This document shows positions 513 to 15,074 of a DNA stretch of 64,000 nucleotides, piece by piece; position 1 is the first letter of the stretch, and each line of letters opens with the position of its first letter. Under the pieces are notes generated by a model. That model had not been told where the DNA came from, made no database searches, and saw only the letters and a list, made by a program, of their open reading frames with translations. This DNA is from Rubrobacter tropicus. Lineage in GTDB: Bacteria > Actinomycetota > Rubrobacteria > Rubrobacterales > Rubrobacteraceae. Position numbers and translations under genes: made by a program. The stretch is taken from contig NZ_CP045119.1 of the NCBI RefSeq assembly GCF_011492945.1, forward strand, positions 1,612,001 to 1,676,000. The letters run 5' to 3'.

Positions 513-1091
513 TCAGTACGAAGACCCCGGCCGCGTCAGAAACTCCGCCTCCTCCGGCGTCGTCTCCCGACCCAGTAAGGCGTTCCTGTGCGGAAAACGC
601 CCGAACCTCTCCACGATGTCCCTGTGCCCGACCGCGTACTCGACCACGTCCGGCCCACCCGGCTCGCCCGCCAGCCCCTCGAAGAGCTCCACCGACCGTC
701 TCTGGTCCTCGACGCTTTCTGAGTGCATGAAGGGCATGTAGAGGAACATTCTTTGAAGAGCCGGCAGCTCCCGGTCCAGCGCGCGCCCGATGGCGTCCTT
801 CGCCGCGTCGAGGGCCTTCGCGTCCGTCGCGTGGGTCCTCGCGTCGCCGCGGAACATGTTGCGTGGGAACTGGTCGAGCGCGATGACGAGCGCCAGGCAG
901 CCCTCCGCCTCCTCGCGCCAGTGGTCCAACTTACCGGCGGCGGCCTGCTCGTACAGGTCTTCGAAGCGGTCCGTTACCTCGCGGTCGAAGGTTTCGTCCT
1001 TCCGGAACCACTCGCTCCTGAACTCGCCGTATCCCGGGTCTCCCTGCGTGCCAAACCAGAAAGCGAGGACTTCTAACGGGCTAGTCCGCAC
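513..1091 (-). CDS. DUF924 family protein
   Basis: This 192-residue protein matches the DUF924 family. It starts with the typical PLEVLAFWFG segment, has the signature ALVIALDQFPRNMFR around residues 68-82 and ends with a YMPFMHSE helix segment. The family is a helical, TPR-like fold of uncertain function. The GTG start overlaps the stop of the upstream DAC-domain gene by 11 bases, so it is probably the last gene of the signalling operon and translationally coupled to it. A role in signalling is only inferred from position. Confidence 0.85.
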   Translation of the reverse strand: MRTSPLEVLAFWFGTQGDPGYGEFRSEWFRKDETFDREVTDRFEDLYEQAAAGKLDHWREEAEGCLALVIALDQFPRNMFRGDARTHATDAKALDAAKDAIGRALDRELPALQRMFLYMPFMHSESVEDQRRSVELFEGLAGEPGGPDVVEYAVGHRDIVERFGRFPHRNALLGRETTPEEAEFLTRPGSSY

Positions 1092-1668
1092 GCGAGATCA
1101 CCGCCACCTCGTCGTCCCGGCGGGTGAGGGTCTGGCCTTCGACGCGGCTCCTGTAGCCCTCGATCATCCACAGCTCCGGGACTATCTCCGTGACGAGCTC
1201 CCCGTCGTCGAACATCCTGACCATCGAGCTTTCGGAGACGACGACCGCGACGGCGTCGGTCTGCTGGGAGATGGAGGCGCCCGCCATGTGGCGGCTGCCG
1301 AGCCCGAGGGGGACGTTCAGGCTGTCGGAGGCCGCGTCTATGTAGCGGGCCGCCGAGAGGACGACGCCGGCGTTCGAGACGACGAAGGCGCCGTCGAGCT
1401 GGGCCAGCTCCTTTATCGTCTCGCGCGTGTTCGGGTCGTCTATGTACTTGTCCTCGTCCGGGTGGCCCTGCAGGGGGTCCAGGATCATGGGCTTCGAGCG
1501 CCGCATCACCTCGCCCGAGTCGCCCACGACGAAGAGAGTCCCGATCTTGCGCCCCTCACGCCCCTCGCGCGCGATCTCGACCGCGAGCGAGACCACCTGC
1601 TCCAGCACCCGCGTGTTGACGTCCCGCCTCTCCGAGCAGATCTCCTCGTATATCCTCGATCTCGCCAT
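1081..1668 (-). CDS. Stand-alone DisA_N/DAC domain protein, probable diadenylate cyclase
   Basis: This 195-residue protein is essentially one DAC domain, which joins two ATP molecules into cyclic di-AMP. The two family signatures are present: DGAFVV at about residues 92-97 and GSRHMAG at about 124-130. The second is usually GTRHRAA, so the second basic residue is Met here. There are no transmembrane helices and no DisA-type DNA-binding C-terminus, so it should be soluble. The ATG at 1668 has an AGGA-rich leader and sits 4 bases after the stop of a histidine kinase; a longer frame reaches 1758 but would overlap that kinase. As penultimate gene of the kinase operon, it may be regulated together with it. 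Catalytic activity is inferred, given the altered RHR-type motif. Confidence 0.8.
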   Translation of the reverse strand: MARSRIYEEICSERRDVNTRVLEQVVSLAVEIAREGREGRKIGTLFVVGDSGEVMRRSKPMILDPLQGHPDEDKYIDDPNTRETIKELAQLDGAFVVSNAGVVLSAARYIDAASDSLNVPLGLGSRHMAGASISQQTDAVAVVVSESSMVRMFDDGELVTEIVPELWMIEGYRSRVEGQTLTRRDDEVAVISRAD

Positions 1669-1672
1669 TTCC

Positions 1673-3061
1673 TCATCCTCCGTTCTGCGTTTGAATCTCC
1701 AGCGGCAACCGCACGGCGAAGCGCGTCCGCCCCGGCCCGGTCTCCAGGTGGATCTCACCCCCGTGCCCGACGACGATCCGCCGAACCACGTCGAGCCCGA
1801 GCCCGGCCCCCGAACCGACCTCTTTGGTGGTGAAGAAGGGCTCGAAGACGCGGCCCTCTATCTCGGGCGGTATCCCGGGCCCGTCGTCCTCCACCTCCAC
1901 GACGACCGCGCCCCCGTCCCTGAAAGCCCGCACCCTGATGCCGCCCCCGCCCGCCACGGCGTCCGCGGCGTTGTCGAGCAGGTTGGTCCAGACCTGGTTC
2001 AACTCCCCGCCGCGGCCTGGCACCTTCGGCAGCCCCTCCTCGTACTCCCGCGCGACGGAGACGCCCCTTAGCTTGTGGCCGAGTACGGTGATGGTGTTCT
2101 CCAGGCCCCGCGCCACGTCCACCTCCGAGTGCGTCGCCCGGTCCATGTAGGTGTACTCTTTCATCGCGCCGACGAGCCGCGAGACGCGGCCGACGCTCAC
2201 CGAGAGCTCCCGCGTGAGCCCCGAGAGCTCCAGAGTTCCCGCGAGCCACCGGACGGCCCCCGTAAGCTCCCCCCCGGAAGAAGCGGACAGGCCTTCTAGA
2301 TCCCGTTCCTCCACGCCGGCCGCTGACAGCGGCGGGGCCAGGTCCCAGGAGTCCTCGACGCCGCGGTCTTCTAGCCAGGAGGCGAGGGCGTCCTCGGCGT
2401 CGCTCGAAGAGAGCGGGTCCCGCGTGGTGGCGGGGCGGGACGTGATCTCCCGCAGCAAGCCGGCGAGGCCCTCGCGGCCTTCGGCGGAGAAACGCGCGTC
2501 GTGTTCGAGGGCGCTGAGCTGGGCGGCGAGGATCGCGTCGCCGAGCTCCTCGGAGGCCCGGCTGGCCGCGGCGGCCGGGTTGTTGAGCTCGTGGGCGAGG
2601 CCCGCGGAGAGCTTGCCTAGCGCGGCGAGCTTCTCCTGCTGGCGGAAGGCCCGCTGCGTGACCCTCATGCGCTGCGCCAGGCCGGAGATGAAGGCGTCGC
2701 CCAACTCGGGCCTCTCGACGGCCAATCGCCGGAAGGTCCCGGCGTCTATCTCGATGACCCGGGTCGGGGCGTTGGCGCGCGCCCGGTGTATGGACCTCTT
2801 GCCGGTCAGGACCGCGAGGCCGCCCGTGAACTCGCCCGGTCCGTGGGTGACGAGCCTGGTCTCCTCCGCGCCGTCGAGGCGTGAGATCCCGACCTCCCCC
2901 TCGACCACGACGTAGAAGCTGTCGACGACACCCTTCTCGTCGAAAAGGTAATCGCCCTCCTCCAGCTGCAGCTCCCTCCCGTAGCCGGAGAGCACCCCGA
3001 GCTGCGCGTGGGTCAGGCGCTGCTCCTCCTGGTCGGCCCGCGTCTCGTTCGGGGCGCGCAC
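1673..3061 (-). CDS. Cyclic-nucleotide-binding-domain sensor histidine kinase (third of three)
   Basis: The protein has an N-terminal cNMP-binding (CAP-ED) beta roll, then a phosphoacceptor region with GLAHELNNP, then an ATPase domain. The N box is [18 protein letters not shown]1 is DDGPGIP, the F box is FEPFFTTK and G2 is GAGLGL. There are no membrane helices, so it is a cytosolic sensor. I chose the GTG at 3061, which overlaps the TAG of the preceding kinase by one base and has GGAGG upstream; a GTG at 3085 is an alternative. It is clearly paralogous to the next two kinases along the whole length. The beta roll lacks the Arg that normally binds the cyclic phosphate, so the ligand may not be cAMP. 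Confidence 0.88.
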   Translation of the reverse strand: MRAPNETRADQEEQRLTHAQLGVLSGYGRELQLEEGDYLFDEKGVVDSFYVVVEGEVGISRLDGAEETRLVTHGPGEFTGGLAVLTGKRSIHRARANAPTRVIEIDAGTFRRLAVERPELGDAFISGLAQRMRVTQRAFRQQEKLAALGKLSAGLAHELNNPAAAASRASEELGDAILAAQLSALEHDARFSAEGREGLAGLLREITSRPATTRDPLSSSDAEDALASWLEDRGVEDSWDLAPPLSAAGVEERDLEGLSASSGGELTGAVRWLAGTLELSGLTRELSVSVGRVSRLVGAMKEYTYMDRATHSEVDVARGLENTITVLGHKLRGVSVAREYEEGLPKVPGRGGELNQVWTNLLDNAADAVAGGGGIRVRAFRDGGAVVVEVEDDGPGIPPEIEGRVFEPFFTTKEVGSGAGLGLDVVRRIVVGHGGEIHLETGPGRTRFAVRLPLEIQTQNGG

Positions 3062-4515
3062 TATCGCCCGGCCTCCAGCGACCACTCGACGTCCAGCGCC
3101 TCGCCGCCGCCCGCCGGGCCTTTCACCGGCAGCCGGACCTCGAAGCGCGTGGCGCCCGGCTCGGAGACGACGTGTATGTCCCCGCCGTGGCGACCCACCA
3201 CGATCCTGTAGCCGACGTCGAGGCCGAGACCCGTGCCGGCGCCCACGTCCTTGGTGGTGAAGAAGGGCTCGAAGATTCGGCCCCTGATTGGTTCCGGGAT
3301 GCCCGGCCCGTCGTCGGAGATCTCAACCAGCACCCGGTCCCCCTCGCACGTCGTCCTGATCCCGACGCGCCCTTTGCCACCCTCGACGGCGTCGATGGCG
3401 TTGTCGAGGAGGGCGGTCCAGACCTGGTTTAGCTCGCCGCCGTAGGCCACTACCGGCGGTAGGTTGGGGTCCAGGTTTCGCCGGACTTCGATGCCGCCGA
3501 GCTTGTAGCCGAGCACGGAGAGGGTGTCCAGGAGGCTTTGGTTCACGTCCACGTCCTGCAGGGGCGCCCGGTCCATGTACGAGTAGCCCTCCATCGTGCG
3601 CACGATCTCGGAGACCCGCCCCGCGCTCCCCTCGACCTCGTCGAGCAGGCCCGAAACCCCGATAACCGCCCCCAGATACCGCAGCGCGTCGGCGCGTACC
3701 GCGGGCGGCACGCTTTCGGCGACGGAGTCGAGGTCCCCGGTGCCGAGCCCCGCGTCGACGAAGGTCGGCGCGAGCTCCCAGGCGTCGGGGAGCCCCGAAT
3801 CCTCCAGCCAGAGGGCCAGCTCGTCCTCCTTCTCGCTCACCTCCAGGGCGTCCAGGGGAGTCGAGGTCCTTGGGCCGGAAAGCCTGACGACCGCGGCTTC
3901 GAGCGCCTCCAGCGCGGAGGGGTTCAACCCGCCGCGGGCCGCGGCGTGGGCCAGGCGCCAGCCCAGGGAGCGCAGCCTGGCGAAGTTCTCGCGCAGTCCC
4001 TCCGCGGAGCGGCGGGTCGCGGAGGCGGGGTTGTTCAGTTCGTGGGCGAGGCCCGCCGCCAGGGTGCCGAGGGAGTCGAGCTTCTCGCGCTGGCCGGCGA
4101 CGGACTGGAGGAGCTGGACGCGCTCGGCCATGGTATGTAGGATCGTCTGGCTGAAAGGGCCGTTCTTCGTTAGCAGCCGACGGAAGAGGGCGTTCGGGAT
4201 CAGGAACATCCGGCAGTCCGTTAGCGCCCTTCCCGAGGCCATGAAGGGCGAGCCCGCCAGCAAGGGCACCTCGGCGAAGAAGCTCCCCGGCGTGTAGACG
4301 TTGAGGACCGTCTCCCCGCCGTCGGCGGTCTTTTTCGTGATCCTGAGGTCCCCCTCCAGGATCACGTACAGGTGCTCGACGGGCTCGCCCTCGCGGCCGT
4401 TCACCTCGCCGGCCCGAACGATTTTCTCCACGCCCTGCTCCAAAACACGCCCGAGCTCCTCGTCCGAGAGCCCGTCGAAGAGCGGCACCCGGCGCAGCTC
4501 CTCCAGCGTCGTCAC
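3061..4515 (-). CDS. Cyclic-nucleotide-binding-domain sensor histidine kinase (second of three)
   Basis: This 484-residue protein has the same layout as its neighbours: CAP-ED domain (about residues 10-130), His phosphoacceptor in [12 protein letters not shown] (His158) and a C-terminal HATPase with [35 protein letters not shown] and GTGLGL. It should autophosphorylate and pass the phosphate to a receiver domain, most simply the receiver of the fusion protein at the head of the operon. The GTG start overlaps the TGA of the upstream kinase (GTGA), suggesting coupled translation. In the phosphate-binding cassette, the usual Arg is replaced by a hydrophobic segment (AGSPFMASGRA). Confidence 0.9.
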   Translation of the reverse strand: MTTLEELRRVPLFDGLSDEELGRVLEQGVEKIVRAGEVNGREGEPVEHLYVILEGDLRITKKTADGGETVLNVYTPGSFFAEVPLLAGSPFMASGRALTDCRMFLIPNALFRRLLTKNGPFSQTILHTMAERVQLLQSVAGQREKLDSLGTLAAGLAHELNNPASATRRSAEGLRENFARLRSLGWRLAHAAARGGLNPSALEALEAAVVRLSGPRTSTPLDALEVSEKEDELALWLEDSGLPDAWELAPTFVDAGLGTGDLDSVAESVPPAVRADALRYLGAVIGVSGLLDEVEGSAGRVSEIVRTMEGYSYMDRAPLQDVDVNQSLLDTLSVLGYKLGGIEVRRNLDPNLPPVVAYGGELNQVWTALLDNAIDAVEGGKGRVGIRTTCEGDRVLVEISDDGPGIPEPIRGRIFEPFFTTKDVGAGTGLGLDVGYRIVVGRHGGDIHVVSEPGATRFEVRLPVKGPAGGGEALDVEWSLEAGR

Positions 4516-5921
4516 GACGCCCCCCGGGTGTCGGGCGCGATGGGCAGCCTGACCTGAAAACGCGTGTCGCCCGGCCGCGACTCGACCCGAATGTCTCCCC
4601 TGTGGTCATCGACGACCACCCTGCGGCTGATGTCCAGCCCGAGACCCGTTCCCTTGCCGACGTCCTTGGTGGTGAAGAAAGGCTCGAACATCCTGCTCCG
4701 TATCTCTTCCGGTATGCCCGGCCCGTCGTCGCCGACCTCCACCAGCACCCGGCCGTTCTCCCTGGCCGTCCGTACCAGGATCCTGCCGTGTCCCCCGACC
4801 GCGCCGATGGCGTTGTCGAGGAGGTTCGTCCAGACCTGGTTCAGCTCCCCCGCGTGCCCGCACACCGGGGGAAGCCCGGCCTCGTACTCGCGGACGACCT
4901 TTACGTCGCCCTTCTTGAGCTTGTGGCCGAGCATGACGAGGGTGCTGTCGAGGCCCGCGTGGACGTCGACCTCCTTTGAGGCGGCCTTGTCCATGTGGGT
5001 GTAGGTCTTGATGGCCCGCACCAGCTCGGAGATCCGGGACGAGCTCTCCTCGATCTCGCGGAGCAATCCGTCTCCGGACACCACGGAAGCGAGCCATCCC
5101 AGCACGTCCCCCAAGGCCTCCTGGGGCAACCGTCCGGACAACCCGTCCAGCCGCGCCACGTCCAGCCCCGCGCCGACGAGGGTGGGGGAGACGTCCCAGG
5201 CACCCTCTACCCCCCGGTCCTCCAGCCACAGCGCCACCTCGTCTTCGAGGTCGCTCCGGTCCAGGGAGTCGAGGGTCGGCGCGGGAAGTTCCGATACCCG
5301 AGTCGGCAGGTCGGCCACGAGCGACCGTTGTTCGGCGTCGAGCGGCAGGGCGCCGAGCTTCGCGGCCTTCTCCGATGAAAAGCGGAAGGTTTGCCTGGCT
5401 TCGGCGGCGGCACGGCTGATGGCGGCGGCGGGGTTGTTCAGTTCATGGGCGAGGCCCGCGGCCATGGTGCCGAGCGAGATCAGCTTCCCGTGCCGCTGGC
5501 TTACGGACTCGTGCAGCTCGGCCCGCTCGACCGAGGTCGCGAGGATGCCGCGCAGGACCTCGGGGCAGATCCTGAGCATCTCCCAGAACTCCGTCTTGTC
5601 CAGCTTGAGGAGCCTGGCATCCGTGACGGCGCGGCCCGTGGTCGGGTAGGGGGCGTCGAGCACCATTATGAGCTCCGCGAAGATCGCGCCCGGACCTAGC
5701 GCCACGACGAACGCTTCCTCCCGCCCTACCTTGCGGGTCCACTCCGTCTCGCCCTCCAGGATCACGTAGAACCCGTCGGGCGGGTCGCCCTGACGGGCGA
5801 TGACGTCGCCCGCCGCGAGCCGGACCTCTTGCGCGCGCTCCGCGATCCATTCGAGCCGCTCTTCCGGGAGATTTTGAAAGAGCCCTACGGTGCGCAGGCA
5901 GTCCAAAGCGCGCGTCTCCAC
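4512..5921 (-). CDS. Cyclic-nucleotide-binding-domain sensor histidine kinase (first of three)
   Basis: This 469-residue cytosolic kinase has a CAP-ED domain at about 10-130, His159 in [12 protein letters not shown], and an ATPase domain with [37 protein letters not shown] and GTGLGL. The region between phosphoacceptor and ATPase carries a segment, [13 protein letters not shown], that recurs in all three paralogues. The GTG start lies one base after the stop of the response-regulator/reductase fusion, which points to co-transcription and a cognate pair. The nucleotide pocket has APYPTTGRA where cAMP binders have an Arg-Ser/Thr pair, so cAMP binding is doubtful. Confidence 0.9.
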
Positions 5922-5922
5922 C

Positions 5923-7584
5923 CTAGATCTCCATCAAGTACTGGTGGACGAACTGGACGGCGATGGAGCCTTCCCCGACCGCGGAGGCGCAGCGTTTGAT
6001 CGAGCCGTGCCGCACGTCCCCCGCAACGAAGATGCCCGGCACGCTCGTCTCGAGCAAGAACGGGTCCCTGTCGGGCCGCCAGCCTTTCGGCCGCTTGCCG
6101 CCTGTCATGAGGTCCGGACCGGACAGGATGAAGCCCCGCCCGTCCCGCTCGACGGTGCCGTCGAGCCACCCCGTCTTCGGGACCGCCCCTATAAAGATGA
6201 ACAGCGAGTTCGCGGGCACGGTCTCGGTCTTCCCCGAGACGGAGTCGCTGATAGTGACCTTCTCCAGGTGCCCGTCGCCCTCGACGGCCGAGACGCTGCT
6301 GTTGGTTATGACCTCTATGTTCCCGGTCTCCTCTATCTGCTTTACCAGGTACTCGGACATGCTCTTGCGCAGGTCGCCCGAGCGGCAGAGAAGCGACACC
6401 TTGCTCGCCTGCCCGGAGAAGAACATCGCGGCCTGGCCTGCGGAGTTGGCCCCGCCGACTATGTAAACGTCCTCGTCCTTGCAGGAGAACGCCTCGGTCT
6501 GGGCCGCGCCGTAGTAGACGCCACGGCCGGTCAGGTTCTCCTCGCCCGGGACGTCGAGGCGGCGGTAGGAGACGCCGGTCGTGATGATGAGGGCGTAGCA
6601 GGAGATCTCCGTCCCGTCTGTCAGCGTGACTATCCTGTATGGGTCCTCCACCCGCACGTCGCTTACCTCCTGGGGCGTGAGGATCTCGACCTCGAACCTG
6701 CGGGCCTGGTCCACGGCCCGCCGCGCGAGATCCGCCCCGGACAACCCCCGCGGGAACCCGAGGTAGTTCTCGATGCGGCTGCTCGTCCCCGCCTGCCCCC
6801 CGGGCGCCTCCCGCTCCACGAGCACCGTGTTGAGCCCCTCGGAAGCCCCGTACACCGCCGCCGCCAGCCCCGACGGGCCGCCGCCCACGATCACGAGGTC
6901 GTAGAACTGCTGCTCGGCGCGGGTCTGGAGCCCGATCTTCTCCGCTATCTCCCGGTTCTCGGGCGCCTCCTCGTAGGACCCGTCCTCGTAAACCACGAGC
7001 GGCAACCTGGGCGATCCGTGGTCCGCGTTGGCCACGACCTGCCGCGCCTCCTCGGACGCCTCGACGTCCAGCCACCTGTAAGGAACGCGGTTTCGGGCCA
7101 GGAAATCTCTGGTCCGGTGCGACGACGGTGACCAGCGGTCTCCGACGACCCGGATCCCCTCGAACGGCGGCCTGTAGTCCGCCCGCCAGTCCTCGAGTAA
7201 CTCGTCCAGACTGGGATACAAGTTCTGATCCGGCGGGTCCCACGGCTTCTGCAGGTAGTAGTCGAGCCCGACCTCGTTTATGGCCCGGATGGCCGCCTCG
7301 GTGTCCGAGTAGGCCGTAAGCAGCGCCCGCTTGGCGTCCGGGAACCGCCCGATCGCCTCCTCCAGAAACTCCACACCTGTCATCCGCGGCATCCTCTGGT
7401 CGACCAGAAACAGCGCCACGGGATCCCCCCGCAGCTTCAGCTTTCCCAAAGTGTCGAGCGCCGACTCGCCCGAGTCGGCCCTCAAAACGCGGTAGTCCTT
7501 CGCGTACCGCCGCCTGAGGTCCCGCTCTACGGCCCGCAGGACCTGAGGGTCGTCGTCCACCGCCAGTATCACCGGCTTCGCCAT
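5923..7584 (-). CDS. Response regulator fused to a thioredoxin-reductase-like FAD/NAD(P) protein
   Basis: The first 120 residues are a receiver domain: acidic cluster DDD at 10-12, phosphoacceptor Asp62 in LFLVDQRMP, Thr90 and Lys113 in LQKPWDPP. A glutaredoxin-like segment follows (about 145-215, with WSPSS where a Cys pair would sit). The rest is a two-Rossmann flavoprotein: GGGPSG at 233-238 for FAD, GGANSAGQAA near 377 for NAD(P)H and a terminal GIFVAGDVR. The redox CxxC of true thioredoxin reductases is replaced by GAAQTE near 359-364, leaving only Cys368. It is therefore probably not a classical thioredoxin reductase. It heads the operon containing the three kinases, whose phosphate it likely accepts, possibly linking redox state to signalling. 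ATG start at 7584; a 200-base gap lies upstream. Confidence 0.9.
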   Translation of the reverse strand: MAKPVILAVDDDPQVLRAVERDLRRRYAKDYRVLRADSGESALDTLGKLKLRGDPVALFLVDQRMPRMTGVEFLEEAIGRFPDAKRALLTAYSDTEAAIRAINEVGLDYYLQKPWDPPDQNLYPSLDELLEDWRADYRPPFEGIRVVGDRWSPSSHRTRDFLARNRVPYRWLDVEASEEARQVVANADHGSPRLPLVVYEDGSYEEAPENREIAEKIGLQTRAEQQFYDLVIVGGGPSGLAAAVYGASEGLNTVLVEREAPGGQAGTSSRIENYLGFPRGLSGADLARRAVDQARRFEVEILTPQEVSDVRVEDPYRIVTLTDGTEISCYALIITTGVSYRRLDVPGEENLTGRGVYYGAAQTEAFSCKDEDVYIVGGANSAGQAAMFFSGQASKVSLLCRSGDLRKSMSEYLVKQIEETGNIEVITNSSVSAVEGDGHLEKVTISDSVSGKTETVPANSLFIFIGAVPKTGWLDGTVERDGRGFILSGPDLMTGGKRPKGWRPDRDPFLLETSVPGIFVAGDVRHGSIKRCASAVGEGSIAVQFVHQYLMEI

Positions 7585-7784: not shown

Positions 7785-8417
7785 TCATTGGACGGTTCGC
7801 GTGAGCCAGCCTCGTGCTTCTTCGAGCTCTTCGTAGGTGAGGGGGTGGCCTGTGTTCTTCCAGCGCAGGTCGAGGTTGGCGCCCGCTTGGCGCAGGATCC
7901 CGGCGAGGCGCTCGGTGTTGTCCGGCGGGATCATGGTGTCCCGCCTGCCGGCGGCCAGGAAGACCGGTACGCCGGAGAGGTCCGGCATCTCCTCCGGCTC
8001 GAAGGGGACCATCGCCCGGAAGAGGACGGCGGCGCGGAGCAGGTTCGGATGTAGCAGCATGAGGCTCGCGGCTATGTTGGCGCCGTTGGAGTAGCCGACG
8101 GCGACGAGCTTCGCGCTGTCGAAGCCGTACTGGTCTGCGGCTTGGCTTACGAAGTCCGCCAACTCGTGCGTCCTGAAGACCAGGTCTTCGTGGTCGAAGA
8201 CGCCCTCGGCGAGGCGGCGGAAGAAGCGGGGGGCGCCGTGTTCGGAGACCTTGCCCCGGGGGCTCAAGATCGCGGCGTCGGGGAGGAGTTGTTGGCCGAG
8301 CGGGATCAGGTCGTCCTCGTTCCCGCCCGTGCCGTGTAGAAGGAGAAGCGTAACGCCGGACCCGTCCCGCTCGCCCGGCAAATAGTTGTGAACAAAGCCC
8401 GCGATCTCGGCGCTCAT
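7785..8417 (-). CDS. Alpha/beta hydrolase, MhqD-like carboxylesterase
   Basis: This 210-residue esterase has the oxyanion-hole motif LLLHGTGGNEDDL near residue 25, nucleophile elbow GYSNG, acid residue in AAGRRDTMIPP and catalytic His in NTGHPLT near the C-terminus. This matches the phospholipase/carboxylesterase family to which MhqD belongs. Its start overlaps the stop of the glyoxalase-fold gene by 4 bases, the same pairing as mhqD and mhqO in Firmicutes. There the pair protects against quinones and catechols; that role here is inferred from family and pairing. The gene name is not certain. Confidence 0.85.
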   Translation of the reverse strand: MSAEIAGFVHNYLPGERDGSGVTLLLLHGTGGNEDDLIPLGQQLLPDAAILSPRGKVSEHGAPRFFRRLAEGVFDHEDLVFRTHELADFVSQAADQYGFDSAKLVAVGYSNGANIAASLMLLHPNLLRAAVLFRAMVPFEPEEMPDLSGVPVFLAAGRRDTMIPPDNTERLAGILRQAGANLDLRWKNTGHPLTYEELEEARGWLTRTVQ

Positions 8418-9361
8418 GCTTCCTCCTTGCCGGGTACCCGTATCGGGGCGAGCACGTCTTCTATCTCGCCTCTACGCTCTTCGAGCCAGGGCGGGAGCTT
8501 GAGCGCCTCGCCGAGGTGGTCCGGGTCCTCGTCGGCGGCGAAGCCCGGCGGGTCGGTGGCGATCTCGAAGAGGACGCCACCGGGCTCGCGGAAGTAGATG
8601 GACCGGAAGTAGTTCCGGTCGAGCACGGGCGTTACGTCGTGGCCGAGCCCGGCTACTTCTTCCCTTACTGCCAGGTGCGTCTCCTCGTCGGGCACGCGGA
8701 AGGCGATGTGGTGGACGGTGCCGACGCCCGTGCCGCCCCTCGGGAAGCCAGAGGCGTCCATCACGTCGACCAGGTTGCCGGGGCCGCCGTCGCCCGCCGC
8801 GAGGCGCACCCTGTTCTCGGCTTCGTCGATTTGCCTGAAGCCGAGGTGGTCCGTCATGAGCCTGACGGTTCGTTCGGCGTCGCGGACGGCAAGGGCGGCG
8901 TGGTGGAAGCCGCGGATGGAGTGCTCGGCAGGGGTCGGGCCGCCGTAGCCCGCCCGACGGTCTTCGGCAGCGACGATCTCCAGCCGCAGGCCGTCGGGGT
9001 CCTCGAAGGCGAGGACCGTGTCGCCGAAGCGGTCGCGGGGCTTCTCGAAGCGAACGCCGCTCTCGACGAGGCGTTCGGTCCAGTAGCCGAGGGAGGCCGA
9101 GGGTATCGAGTACGCGGTGGTGACGACCTGTCCAGAGCCCACGCGGCCCCGCGGGGCGCCCTCCCAGGGGAAAAAGGTCATGATGGTGCCGGGGTTCCCG
9201 CCGCCGTCGCCGTAGTAGAGGTGGTAAGTGCCAGGGTCGTCGAAGTTCACGGTCCTCTTGACCAGCCGGGTCCCCAGGACGCCCGCGTAGAAGTCCACGT
9301 TCCGCTGCGGCCCGCCGCTTATCGCGGTGATATGGTGAATACCCGATGTCCCAGTGCTCAT
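8414..9361 (-). CDS. Ring-cleaving dioxygenase, VOC/glyoxalase fold (MhqO-like)
   Basis: The 315-residue protein holds two VOC modules. The first starts with GIHHITAISGGPQRNVDFY and the second with IRGFHHAALAVRDAERT. Metal-ligand positions are visible as HH in IHHITA, HH in VHHIAFRV and Glu in LFEIATDPPGF. This is the pattern of bacterial ring-cleaving dioxygenases such as MhqO, which open hydroquinone rings with a divalent metal. The ATG at 9361 follows GGGAG by 4 bases. It is the first gene of a two-gene operon with the MhqD-like esterase. A nearby regulator was not found; the upstream gap is filled by repeats. Confidence 0.87.
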   Translation of the reverse strand: MSTGTSGIHHITAISGGPQRNVDFYAGVLGTRLVKRTVNFDDPGTYHLYYGDGGGNPGTIMTFFPWEGAPRGRVGSGQVVTTAYSIPSASLGYWTERLVESGVRFEKPRDRFGDTVLAFEDPDGLRLEIVAAEDRRAGYGGPTPAEHSIRGFHHAALAVRDAERTVRLMTDHLGFRQIDEAENRVRLAAGDGGPGNLVDVMDASGFPRGGTGVGTVHHIAFRVPDEETHLAVREEVAGLGHDVTPVLDRNYFRSIYFREPGGVLFEIATDPPGFAADEDPDHLGEALKLPPWLEERRGEIEDVLAPIRVPGKEEA

Positions 9362-11930: not shown

Positions 11931-13715
11931 CTAACCGTCGCTCCCCGTCGTGACCGCCTCCTCAACGAGCTGGGAGCCCAGGATCTCGTTGTACAGTTCG
12001 GAGTCGCGGCGCAGTTCTTCGTGCGTGCCCATCGCGCCGATCCTGCCCTCGTCGAGGACCAGGATCAGGTCGGCGTCACGAACCGTCGAGACCCGCTGGG
12101 CTATCACGAAGACCGTCCGGTGCTTCTCGCGCATCAGCCCGTCCAGGGTCTCCTGGATCGCCGCCTCGGTCTCCGCGTCGACAGCGGACGTGCTGTCGTC
12201 GAGGATGAGCAGGCGCGGGTCCACCAGGAGCGCCCGCGCTATGGCGATCCTCTGCCGCTGCCCGCCTGAGAGCCCCACGCCGCGTTCCCCGATCACGGTG
12301 TCGTACCCGTCGGACAGCCCCCGGATAAAACCGTCGGCCTGGGCGGCTTCGGCGGCGGCCCTGACCTCCTCGTCGGTGGCGTCGGGTTTGCCGAAGGCCA
12401 CGTTGTCCCGGACTGAGCCCGAGAAGAGACGGGCCTCCTGGAGGACCATCCCGATCTGGGACCGCAAGGAAGAGAGCGTAACGTCGCGCACGTCGTTCCC
12501 GTCGAGCCTGACGGCGCCGCCCGTCACGTCGTAGAACCGCGGCAGCAGGTTGACGAGCGTCGACTTGCCAGAACCCGTCGTGCCGAGGATGGCGACGGTG
12601 CTGCCCGGCTCGATCTCGAAGCTGACGCCGTCCAAAACTTCGCGCTCGCTCCCCGGATAACGGAACGAGACGTTGTCGAACTTGACCCTGCACTCGACGG
12701 GAGGCAGGGGGGAGGCGTCGGGTTTGTCCGTGACCTCCAGGGGCGCGTCCAGGATCTCGAACACCCGTGTGGCCGAAGCCCCGGCCCGCGAGATGCTCGC
12801 GGACAGGAAGCCTATCGTAAGTATCGGGAAGAGCATGAAACCTAGCAGGGTGTTGAACGCGACGAGCTCCCCGATGGAGAGCCCGCCGTTTATTACCTGC
12901 CAGCCGCCGAACCACACTATCGCCAGCGTCCCGACGTTGGCGAGCAAGAAGACGAAGGGGAAGTTGTTCGAGAAGACGCGGACGGTCTGGAGGTTCTTGT
13001 CGAGAAGCTCGTCGTTGACGGCCTTGTAGCGGGCGGTCTCGTAGTCCTCGCGTGCGAAGGCCCTGATCACGCGCACCCCCGAAAGGTCTTCTTGCAGCAC
13101 GGTGTTGAGCCTGCCCAGCGTCTGCTGGACCTGCCCGAAGAGTGGCCGAATGAGCCCCACGAACCGGACGAGCAGCAGGGCTATCAAAGGGACCACGGCG
13201 AGCGCGACGAGCGCCAGTTGCCAGTCCAGGTAAAAGAGCAGGGCCGCCGAGCCGACGAGCATTACCACCGCGTTGGCGAGTTGGACGACGCCGGAGCCTG
13301 CGAAGGACCTTATCTGCTCGACATCGTTGGTGAGCCGTTGGACGAGTTGGCCCGTCTGGACCCGGTCGTAGTAGCTGAACGAGAGCCGCTCCATCTGCCC
13401 GAACAGCGCGTCGCGCAAATCGTACGCGACCCCCTGGGAAGCCCTCTCGGCCAGGTATCCCTGCAAGAACGTGAACAGCCCTCGCGCCAGCGCCACCGCG
13501 ACGAGACCTGCCACCGCGTAGACGAGGACGTCGGCCCTCCGGGGGGCGATGCCCGTGTCGATCGCCCGGCCTACGAGGAGCGGGGCCACAAGGCTGGCCC
13601 CCGAGACGAGCATCAGGGCCAGCGCCGCGCCGATGCTCTCCCGCTTGTACGAGCGCAAAAAACCCAGCGCCCGCCTGAGCGCTCCCGGGCCCTGGGCTCG
13701 CTCCTCGCCGGCCAA
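11931..13715 (-). CDS. ABC exporter half-transporter with degenerate ATP site
   Basis: This 594-residue TMD-NBD protein has six helices, then Walker A GTTGSGKST, signature LSGGQRQ and Walker B LLILDDSTSAVD. The catalytic Glu after Walker B is Asp and the H-loop His is Gln (VIAQRVST). Such a half typically pairs with a canonical half in heterodimeric exporters of the TM287/288 or BmrCD type. The partner would be the exporter gene ending at 9781. An 8-base gap separates it from the PPOX-type gene upstream, so those may be co-transcribed. Export substrate is not predictable. Confidence 0.92.
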   Translation of the reverse strand: MAGEERAQGPGALRRALGFLRSYKRESIGAALALMLVSGASLVAPLLVGRAIDTGIAPRRADVLVYAVAGLVAVALARGLFTFLQGYLAERASQGVAYDLRDALFGQMERLSFSYYDRVQTGQLVQRLTNDVEQIRSFAGSGVVQLANAVVMLVGSAALLFYLDWQLALVALAVVPLIALLLVRFVGLIRPLFGQVQQTLGRLNTVLQEDLSGVRVIRAFAREDYETARYKAVNDELLDKNLQTVRVFSNNFPFVFLLANVGTLAIVWFGGWQVINGGLSIGELVAFNTLLGFMLFPILTIGFLSASISRAGASATRVFEILDAPLEVTDKPDASPLPPVECRVKFDNVSFRYPGSEREVLDGVSFEIEPGSTVAILGTTGSGKSTLVNLLPRFYDVTGGAVRLDGNDVRDVTLSSLRSQIGMVLQEARLFSGSVRDNVAFGKPDATDEEVRAAAEAAQADGFIRGLSDGYDTVIGERGVGLSGGQRQRIAIARALLVDPRLLILDDSTSAVDAETEAAIQETLDGLMREKHRTVFVIAQRVSTVRDADLILVLDEGRIGAMGTHEELRRDSELYNEILGSQLVEEAVTTGSDG

Positions 13716-13723
13716 GCGGTCTT

Positions 13724-14137
13724 CTACGCGCCCATCTGGGTAGTGTGACGCGGCCTCACGTGGACTACCACGCGCTCGTCGCCCGGCTGGTGGAACGGGT
13801 AGACGTCGCGGCCCATGTACTTCTTGGCCATCGCGTTTATGAAGTCGTTGTCCGGGTCCTCCTCGATGCGGTCCACCTCGCCCCGGATCTCCAGGTAGCG
13901 GTACGGGTTCTCGGGGTCAACGATAGAGAGGGCCAGCCGAGGCTCCCTGCCCAGGTTCCTGTACTTCTGGCGGGTCTTCGTCTGGCTGAACTGTATGTTC
14001 TCCCCGTCCCAGCCGAACCAGACGGGGTTGTTCTGCGGCTCGCCGTTGGGGCCGAGCGTCGCGACGTGGACCAGGGCCGTGCTCTCGAGCAGGTCCCTGT
14101 ATCCCTCGGGTATCCCGGTCCTTCCGTTCTCGGTCAC
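13724..14137 (-). CDS. PPOX-class flavin/F420-dependent enzyme
   Basis: The 137-residue protein has the split-barrel fold of pyridoxamine-phosphate-oxidase-like enzymes: VATLGPNGEPQNNPVWFGW, then FSQTKTRQKYRNLGREPRLAL and a C-terminal HVRPRHTTQMGA. This pattern is typical of F420-dependent PPOX proteins of actinobacteria, which reduce or bind small substrates with F420H2. F420 rather than FMN use is inferred from the family and from the LLM oxidoreductase next to it. It lies 31 bases downstream of that gene and 8 bases before the exporter gene. Confidence 0.85.
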   Translation of the reverse strand: MTENGRTGIPEGYRDLLESTALVHVATLGPNGEPQNNPVWFGWDGENIQFSQTKTRQKYRNLGREPRLALSIVDPENPYRYLEIRGEVDRIEEDPDNDFINAMAKKYMGRDVYPFHQPGDERVVVHVRPRHTTQMGA

Positions 14138-14168
14138 GCATACTCCTCTCTCGTTTTTTGCGTGAACC

Positions 14169-15074
14169 TCAAGAGTTTAGCCCGGCTCCGCGTTCGCGGG
14201 CCACGGCCTCCCGAACGCCGGGCACCACCTCGTTTGCGAAGAGCTCCACCTGGCGCCCGTGGTCCCGGTTCGGCCAGTACACGAACGTGTCCATGCCGTA
14301 TTCGAGGACGAAGCCAGCGAGCGTCTCGATCCACTTCTCGGCGGAACCTTCGAGCCGGCCTTCGCCCTCCGGGCCGATGTTGCCCGAGACGTTGTAGACG
14401 CGCTTTATCCCGGAGGGATCTCGTCCCGCTTCGGCGGCCCCTTCGTCTATCTTCTCGTGCATCCCAGGCAGGCGTCCGGGCGGGGAGAACCCGAGGGAGG
14501 GGACCCAGCCGTCCGCCTTGCGCCCGATCAGGCCGAGCATCCGCGGCCCGTAAGCCCCGACCCAGATGCCGATGTCGTGCGCCGGCGGCGGACCGGGACG
14601 CATCCCCTTTAATGAATAGAACTCGCCCTCGAAGCGCAGGCTGCGTTCCCCGCTCCAGACCATGCGCATCACTTCTATGGCCTCCTCGGTTGACCTGAGG
14701 GCTTCTCCGGGGCTACGGCGGGGGCCGCCCATGCCGACGACCGCGTCCCAGAAGGCGCCGGCCCCCAGCCCGACCTCGACCCTCCCGCCGGAGATAGCGT
14801 CGAGCGAGGCCGCGGCCTTCGCCAGCATCACGGGCGGCCTCAAGGGCAGGTTCGCGACGTCGGTAAAGAAGCGCACGTTCCCCGTGACGGGTACGAGGGT
14901 CGAGATGAGCGTCCACGTGTCCAGGAACCGCCGCTGGTAAGGGTGGTCCTGAATGCCGACGAGGTCCAACCCCGCGCGGTCGGCGGTAGTGGCCATCCTC
15001 GCCGCGAAGTCCGGGGGGTCCGCCAGCGGCTCCACGCTGACGCCGAACTCTAGCGCCCTGCCGTAATCAGGCAT
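14169..15074 (-). CDS. LLM-class (luciferase-like) F420-dependent oxidoreductase
   Basis: A 301-residue TIM-barrel luciferase-like enzyme. Family landmarks are LVGIQDHPYQRRFLDTW, the SGGRVEVGLGAG flavin/F420-binding strand, and a GIWVGAYGPRMLGLIGRKADGWVP segment. These enzymes use F420 or FMN to oxidise or reduce small organic substrates. The start overlaps the end of the MFS gene by 8 bases, so it is the last member of the MarR-controlled operon. The substrate is unknown; secondary-metabolite or xenobiotic turnover fits the neighbours. Confidence 0.87.
   Translation of the reverse strand: MPDYGRALEFGVSVEPLADPPDFAARMATTADRAGLDLVGIQDHPYQRRFLDTWTLISTLVPVTGNVRFFTDVANLPLRPPVMLAKAAASLDAISGGRVEVGLGAGAFWDAVVGMGGPRRSPGEALRSTEEAIEVMRMVWSGERSLRFEGEFYSLKGMRPGPPPAHDIGIWVGAYGPRMLGLIGRKADGWVPSLGFSPPGRLPGMHEKIDEGAAEAGRDPSGIKRVYNVSGNIGPEGEGRLEGSAEKWIETLAGFVLEYGMDTFVYWPNRDHGRQVELFANEVVPGVREAVARERGAGLNS

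Follow-up and report, generated by a model that had tools for sequence, protein, structure and literature searches.

Three CNB-domain histidine kinases lacking the phosphate arginine accompany a receiver-flavoreductase in Rubrobacter tropicus

We examined a 64,000-nucleotide stretch of the Rubrobacter tropicus genome (contig NZ_CP045119.1, positions 1,612,001 to 1,676,000; hereafter the window, in whose coordinates positions are given unless a locus is named). Between 1673 and 5921 the minus strand carries three intact frames, K1, K2 and K3, each encoding a histidine kinase with a cyclic-nucleotide-binding (CNB) domain, and next to them lies a gene for a receiver (REC) domain fused to a flavoreductase. 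The operon probably combines this one REC-flavoreductase with three CNB kinases of separate classes, whose domains have the CRP fold without its phosphate clamp and would feed inputs other than cAMP or cGMP into a shared receiver. An earlier note on this DNA, made from the letters alone, had proposed three sensors with different, non-cAMP ligands and one receiver. The genes and pocket regions are as follows.

5923-7584, minus strand: response regulator with REC, glutaredoxin-like and pyridine-nucleotide reductase parts (thioredoxin reductase-like, no CxxC), presumed common receiver; Pfam Response_reg 1.7e-15, Pyr_redox_2 2e-35
4512-5921, minus strand: K1, CNB-domain histidine kinase; Pfam cNMP_binding E 3.9e-19, HATPase_c
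5628-5681, minus strand: K1 phosphate-cassette region, Tyr at the Arg209 place, Glu retained
3061-4515, minus strand: K2, CNB-domain histidine kinase; Pfam cNMP_binding E 9.7e-21, HATPase_c
4225-4278, minus strand: K2 cassette FAEVPLLAGSPFMASGRA, Phe at the Arg209 place, Glu retained
1673-3085, minus strand: K3, CNB-domain histidine kinase, start GTG 3085 or GTG 3061; Pfam cNMP_binding E 2.6e-14, HATPase_c
2774-2830, minus strand: K3 cassette FTGGLAVLTGKRSIHRARA, Ser at the Arg209 place (gap-free family alignment), Gly at the Glu200 place, class-invariant Arg three residues on

Results

The phosphate arginine is absent from all three CNB domains

The three kinases have a common plan, with the Pfam CNB domain (jelly-roll plus C-helix) N-terminal, followed by HATPase_c; the H, N, G1, F and G2 boxes are present in each, and HisKA gives a match below the Pfam cut-off in K1 and K2 and none in K3. 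At the place of PKA Arg209 and CRP Arg82, K1 reads Tyr, K2 Phe, and K3 Ser or its neighbour, which bears out the earlier note's claim that all three pockets lack the phosphate arginine. For K1 and K2 the HMMER alignments pass through the cassette without gaps: Tyr92 of K1 stands opposite Arg209 and Arg333 of PKA RI-alpha, and in K2 the phosphate Arg of 5j3u has Phe91 opposite it. Chance or misalignment is thereby ruled out as the source of the missing Arg in these two.

K3 is the hard case. Its GKRS stretch carries an arginine, Arg97, one residue ahead of the Arg209 place, and its sequence alignments disagree: with 5h5o, its best sequence match in the PDB and the CNB domain of a structure published on cGMP signalling, Ile99 falls at the arginine; with 6rsx it is Ser98, and with 2pqq, in a shifted HMMER alignment, Arg97. 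Because the alignments disagree and the arginine sits one place early, we modelled the domain (AF2, pLDDT 85, built with 50 family sequences). VIA-align superposed all 133 model residues (13-145) on residues 7-141 of CRP 1i6x, skipping two chain residues (Z 16.6, root-mean-square deviation (rmsd) 3.5). The offset moves from -6 to -4, so that Arg82 faces model residues 86-88 (Ser98, Ile99, His100) and not Arg97; these facing residues, in P0003 numbering, come from arithmetic on alignment end offsets and are ranges rather than residue pairs. On Mycobacterium tuberculosis CRP (4a2u; 131 of 131 residues aligned, one skipped) the phosphate arginine, which we take to be number 89, faces model residue 86 or 87, again not Arg97.

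The superposition on CRP, which the earlier note had suggested as a check, thus leaves no room in the pocket for Arg97 of K3 with either reference structure. Arg97 is also not conserved, its place reading Arg in three of eight K3 orthologues, Gly in two, and Thr, Val and Ser in the others. These structural ranges and the lack of conservation rule out misalignment for K3 as well, though the three sequence alignments disagree. The CNB fold is retained in the models of K1 (pLDDT 87.6; against 4ev0, Z 19.6, rmsd 1.3, 134 residues aligned) and K3, and is assigned by sequence for K2.

A second mark of cyclic-nucleotide pockets, the glycine of the beta2-beta3 loop (PKA Gly169), is not kept either: its place reads Pro, Val and Val in K1, K2 and K3. 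The cassette Glu (PKA E200), which contacts the ribose 2'-OH in cAMP sites, is retained in 11 of 11 members of the K1 class and 6 of 6 of the K2 class, and is absent from the K3 class (Gly in six, Gln in two of eight). As read from their alignments, the three domains are without the canonical cyclic-nucleotide signature. The clamp is lost though the CRP fold is kept, and the response is therefore most likely to something other than cAMP or cGMP.

K1, K2 and K3 belong to separate classes

We placed 96 kinases in a tree from which the phosphate-cassette columns had been excluded (a "quick" tree with SH-aLRT support only and some long branches). K1 forms a clade with kinases from cyanobacteria (six) and from other Rubrobacteraceae (four) (n=11, support 99). 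All 11, the cyanobacterial members included, have the signature AE…YPT[TS]G, and 7 of 12 counted cassette positions are invariant among them. K2 falls in a six-row and K3 in an eight-row Rubrobacteraceae clade (support 100 for both), each with its own cassette. The sister of K3 is a 19-row cyanobacterial class, joined at a node with support 81, and the two pockets differ: the Glu place reads Gly in six and Gln in two K3-class rows against Glu in 15, Asp in two and Asn in two sister rows, and cassette position 20 is Arg in 8/8 against 0/19.

The earlier note's observation that the three pockets differ from each other thus gains a phylogenetic basis, the classes being separate in a tree built without the cassette and each having a cassette of its own. 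Recent triplication is ruled out by this separation into three clades and by the divergence of the kinases, K1 having 48% identity with K2 and 45% with K3. These comparisons support the view that K1, K2 and K3 are long-separated types with distinct, separately conserved pockets and not spare copies; distinct signals are therefore supported, the ligands not thereby proven. A scan of viral sequences with K1 found no relative.

Arginine loss is ordinary among related kinases

A REC-reductase scan of named genomes gave 184 relatives, and we used the best 80, of which 68 are cyanobacterial by title. A kinase match above 150 bits was present in 61 of these 80 loci (one matching frame in 37, two in 17 and three in 7), many of the contigs ending early. 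Together with Rubrobacteraceae loci and K1-K3, these loci provided 98 kinase rows in which the cassette could be read, once short rows without one had been set aside, as had L095-L099 and L101, which duplicate the places of L115-L121; imperfect rows left in are L110, with an apparent frame shift in its cassette, and L119 and L100, pieces of one genome.

Arg is kept in only two of the 70 rows whose cassette aligns without gaps, namely L108 and L109, both from Rubrobacteraceae. One extra residue is present in 14 of the 98 rows, two of which (L151 and L165) have an Arg one step off the place; a further 12 rows are one residue shorter in the cassette and two are longer. Among 40 further actinobacterial kinases (41 loci minus L205, a repeat of L108), Arg is present without gaps in seven and with an insertion in one more (L231). 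R. tropicus itself has 14 CNB domains including K1-K3, three of which read as Arg-bearing. Absence of the Arg is thus ordinary among the sampled relatives and not special to K1-K3.

The survey of Kannan et al. (2007; PMC2246266) includes several CNB families that are non-canonical and describes co-variation of the Arg with the loop Gly. The loop Gly occurs in four of our 98 rows: the Arg-bearing L108 and L109, the frame-shifted L110, and L149, which has no Arg.

L108 (1000-2394) and L109 (1391-2794) are sister kinases with the full canonical cassette (PRNAS and PRSAS) and the loop Gly, and L108 adjoins a REC-reductase 67% identical to the 5923-7584 protein. L110 (3915-5381), an extra CNB kinase in genome G006, has an apparently frame-shifted cassette stretch and Guanylate_cyc matches on the same contig. 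The two Rubrobacteraceae genomes with an Arg-bearing kinase gave no sign of a link between the Arg and class III cyclases, G014 having two cyclase matches and G015 none.

The receiver is fused to a reductase without the CxxC pair

REC residues D62, T90 and K113 are conserved in the receiver family. In the reductase part, a Cys at the CxxC stretch of thioredoxin reductases is absent from all 110 rows, of which 104 have letters in that stretch; the glutaredoxin-like part reads S-P-x-S in most rows, with Ser instead of Cys, and Cys368 is retained in 91 rows. The NCBIfam thioredoxin-disulfide reductase score is 230, below the cut-off of 343. Because the CxxC is absent, "thioredoxin reductase" is a poor name, and a flavin reductase with another acceptor is likelier.

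A gene with a diadenylate cyclase domain adjoins K3

Read along the minus strand, the genes are glyoxalase, esterase, REC-glutaredoxin-like-reductase, K1, K2, K3, a diadenylate cyclase (DAC) domain gene and a DUF924 gene. The DAC gene, which the earlier note did not include, lies just outside 1673-5921, directly downstream of K3. The flanking genes are as follows.

9361-8414, minus strand: two-domain glyoxalase gene (Pfam), upstream of the kinase cassette
8417-7785, minus strand: MhqD-like esterase gene; MhqD 176 bits, below the NCBIfam cut-off of 325
7785-9361, minus strand: glyoxalase and esterase pair; the kinase cassette stands between it and the DAC gene
1081-1668, minus strand: DacZ-like DAC gene, ATG 4 bases past the K3 stop; Pfam DAC 1.4e-21
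513-1091, minus strand: DUF924 gene (Pfam), a frequent partner of the DAC gene

At 12 of 12 Rubrobacteraceae junctions examined, the gap between kinase and DAC gene is 2-5 bases, an earlier, overlapping DAC start also being possible at three (L095, L096, L103). Eight of the kinases at these junctions are full-length and match K3 best; the other four are fragments, two matching K3 best and two slightly better K1. The DAC protein (about 195 amino acids) has DacZ as its best NCBIfam match, at 148 bits against an equivalog cut-off of 430; the profile queries began at 1656, four residues short. RHR is a diadenylate cyclase motif. The protein retains the DGA motif and has RHM as its second catalytic motif, not RHR as in CdaA rows; other DacZ-like rows carry RHM, RHV or RHW.

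Among the 34 DAC loci that we listed, a kinase is present in 12 and absent from 21, and L114 has the decayed tail of one; some of these 21 end at contig ends and some represent a second DAC gene. DUF924 stands beside the DAC gene in 20 of the 34, including all 12 that are kinase-linked. In seven of the 21 kinase-less loci the DAC gene directly follows the glyoxalase-esterase pair, which corresponds to this site lacking the kinase cassette. The occupied arrangement, glyoxalase-esterase-kinase cassette-DAC-DUF924 (here 7785-9361 and 513-1668 on either side), can thus be compared with empty sites reading glyoxalase-esterase-DAC-DUF924 (L077, L080, L081, L091). The decayed kinase tail of L114 (3148-3623), adjoining a DAC gene in a Rubrobacteraceae genome, suggests that the kinase cassette was lost in at least one lineage.

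The R. tropicus genome has three DAC domains. A second DacZ-like gene of this genome lies away from the kinases (L075, 3727-4881), with related copies in L085-L087. The fetched flanks of the 19-row cyanobacterial sister group of K3 gave no match to the DAC sequence, and we found no description of a CNB histidine kinase with cyclic di-AMP (c-di-AMP) in the open-licence PMC literature. Class III cyclase domains had no match in the R. tropicus genome, which is 97.7% complete, other cyclase classes not having been searched.

Comparison with known systems

Family 15 ("HisK") of Kannan et al. (2007), like K1-K3, has a histidine-kinase-like ATPase after the CNB domain; the consensus cassette given for it, GELSLLTGGPRSATVRA, retains the Arg that K1-K3 lack (PMC2246266). 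The CBS-linked family 22 (GERALLAGGPYSLTARA) described there shares with K1 a Tyr at the Arg209 place, its CNB domains being joined to CBS domains, unlike K1. In its account of REC-thioredoxin reductase regulators (the "Mycobacterium-like" combination), PMC5847659 describes a REC domain fused to a thioredoxin reductase-like flavoenzyme, as in the receiver here; that account names only the fusion, and the kinases, their pockets and the missing CxxC are added in the present analysis.

NtcA is among the best matches of the K3 domain, both by sequence (2xgx) and in Foldseek (2xko, 2xhk). Unlike K3, it is a transcription factor with 2-oxoglutarate, and HMMER opens a two-residue gap in K3 right after Arg97-Ser98. 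Trypanosomatid PKA-R, as characterized in PMC10959531, likewise has CNB domains without the Arg and has changed its ligand to nucleosides, having gained a Glu at the PKA Ala202 place. K1, K2 and K3 read Ile, Pro and Ala there, and a trypanosome-like nucleoside pocket is rejected on the absence of this signature Glu. The 1668-1081 protein resembles DacZ of Haloferax in having a DAC domain with the DGA motif (PMC6741144), and differs in its sub-cut-off score and in having RHM where CdaA enzymes have RHR.

Discussion

Building on the observed fold, the missing Arg and coupling Gly, the kinase and receiver motifs, the class-specific cassettes and the gene order, we propose that each CNB domain sets the activity of its own kinase through the C-helix, and that K1-K3 would phosphorylate the shared REC domain of the 5923-7584 protein, as the operon suggests. 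Phosphorylation would then switch the reductase, an NAD(P)H-flavin enzyme without the disulfide of thioredoxin reductases. Each domain may have its own ligand, differing from the others, and the input signals are probably other than canonical cyclic nucleotides. The best single guess is for K3, which may sense c-di-AMP or a related product of the adjoining DAC-like protein.

The earlier reading of three non-cAMP sensors on one receiver, without simple redundancy, is reasonable on this evidence, given the distinct conserved pocket types, the receiver gene in the operon and the lack of a canonical signature. Its observation was right, and its novelty is smaller because most sampled relatives also lack the Arg; a missing Arg, moreover, does not show that a domain binds a ligand at all. 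Several findings weigh against the proposed explanation. Receiver loci have from one to three kinases, so three inputs are unnecessary for the system. The Glu retained in K1 and K2 leaves room for a nucleotide-like ligand, and the best PDB sequence match of K3, 5h5o, is a cGMP-pathway CNB domain. The link between Arg and Gly is real but loose in the wider set: of eight Arg-bearing rows in the actinobacterial set, five have the Gly and three do not, and L223 has the Gly without the Arg. The cyclase search covered class III only, in a genome that is 97.7% complete, and any ligands named for these domains are candidates.

An unlikely alternative is that the CNB domains are ligand-free, acting as structural or protein-contact modules like some FNR/CRP relatives. 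The loss of both the Arg and the coupling Gly would fit, and PMC12937710, in its treatment of FNR/CRP factors, describes several that adopt the DNA-binding form with the cavity filled by salt bridges. Against this, class-specific cassettes retained across the distance between Rubrobacter and cyanobacteria suggest a constrained pocket, though packing could have the same effect.

A special case of the explanation we prefer makes K3 a c-di-AMP receptor kinase, for which the neighbouring diadenylate cyclase makes the ligand and which reports its level to the reductase. We regard this as tentative and rather unlikely. It draws on the 2-5 base gap at every kinase-DAC junction examined, with eight full-length kinases matching K3 best, and on a K3 pocket that is derived relative to its cyanobacterial sister (Glu lost in 8/8 against Glu, Asp or Asn in 19/19; Arg at position 20 in 8/8 against 0/19). 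The K3 fold list also contains CLP (3iwz), a CRP-type protein titled as c-di-GMP-responsive. On the other side, the association represents one evolutionary event only, the DAC gene occurs without a kinase in 21 of the 34 listed loci, and the DacZ-like score lies below the NCBIfam cut-off with RHM as the second catalytic motif; we know of no c-di-AMP-binding CNB domain. The full version, in which K3 is a c-di-AMP-gated kinase whose CRP-type pocket was re-made for a cyclic dinucleotide, is translationally coupled to its own DAC, and sets REC-flavoreductase activity together with two non-cAMP CNB kinases, is more doubtful still. The DAC coupling is a more interesting lead than the missing Arg.

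That the three pockets accommodate redox-linked effectors, whether aromatic, quinone-like or of another kind, in the manner of CprK is distinctly improbable. The MhqD-like esterase and two-domain glyoxalase genes directly upstream, the presence of CprK with chlorophenolacetic acid among the K3 fold matches, and a flavoreductase as output would all suit such ligands. However, the esterase-glyoxalase pair precedes the DAC gene also without the kinase cassette (seven loci), and it stands beside the cassette in only three of the 12 kinase-linked loci, several contigs ending there. The ten neighbours at nine cyanobacterial loci comprise two single-domain glyoxalases, two PsiE, one LtrA and five without a Pfam match. 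At one cyanobacterial REC-reductase locus, L156, an LtrA gene (13538-14734) lies between two CNB kinases.

Weak binding of cAMP or cGMP through the Glu and the main chain is very improbable: the Glu kept in K1 and K2, the full cassette of the related L108 and L109 and the 5h5o match of K3 speak for it, but the genome yielded no class III cyclase domain, and in PKA an Arg-to-Lys change by itself brings a nearly ten-fold loss, according to PMC2246266.

CNB domains are routinely annotated as cyclic-nucleotide-binding. Most of the sampled actinobacterial and cyanobacterial kinases lack the phosphate Arg, and do so in a class-specific manner. The sampled kinases accompany a receiver that carries an enzyme instead of a DNA-binding domain. 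L108, a sister kinase that keeps the Arg and adjoins a related receiver, offers a positive control for cyclic nucleotides, and the coupling of K3 to the DAC gene supplies a concrete candidate ligand to try first.

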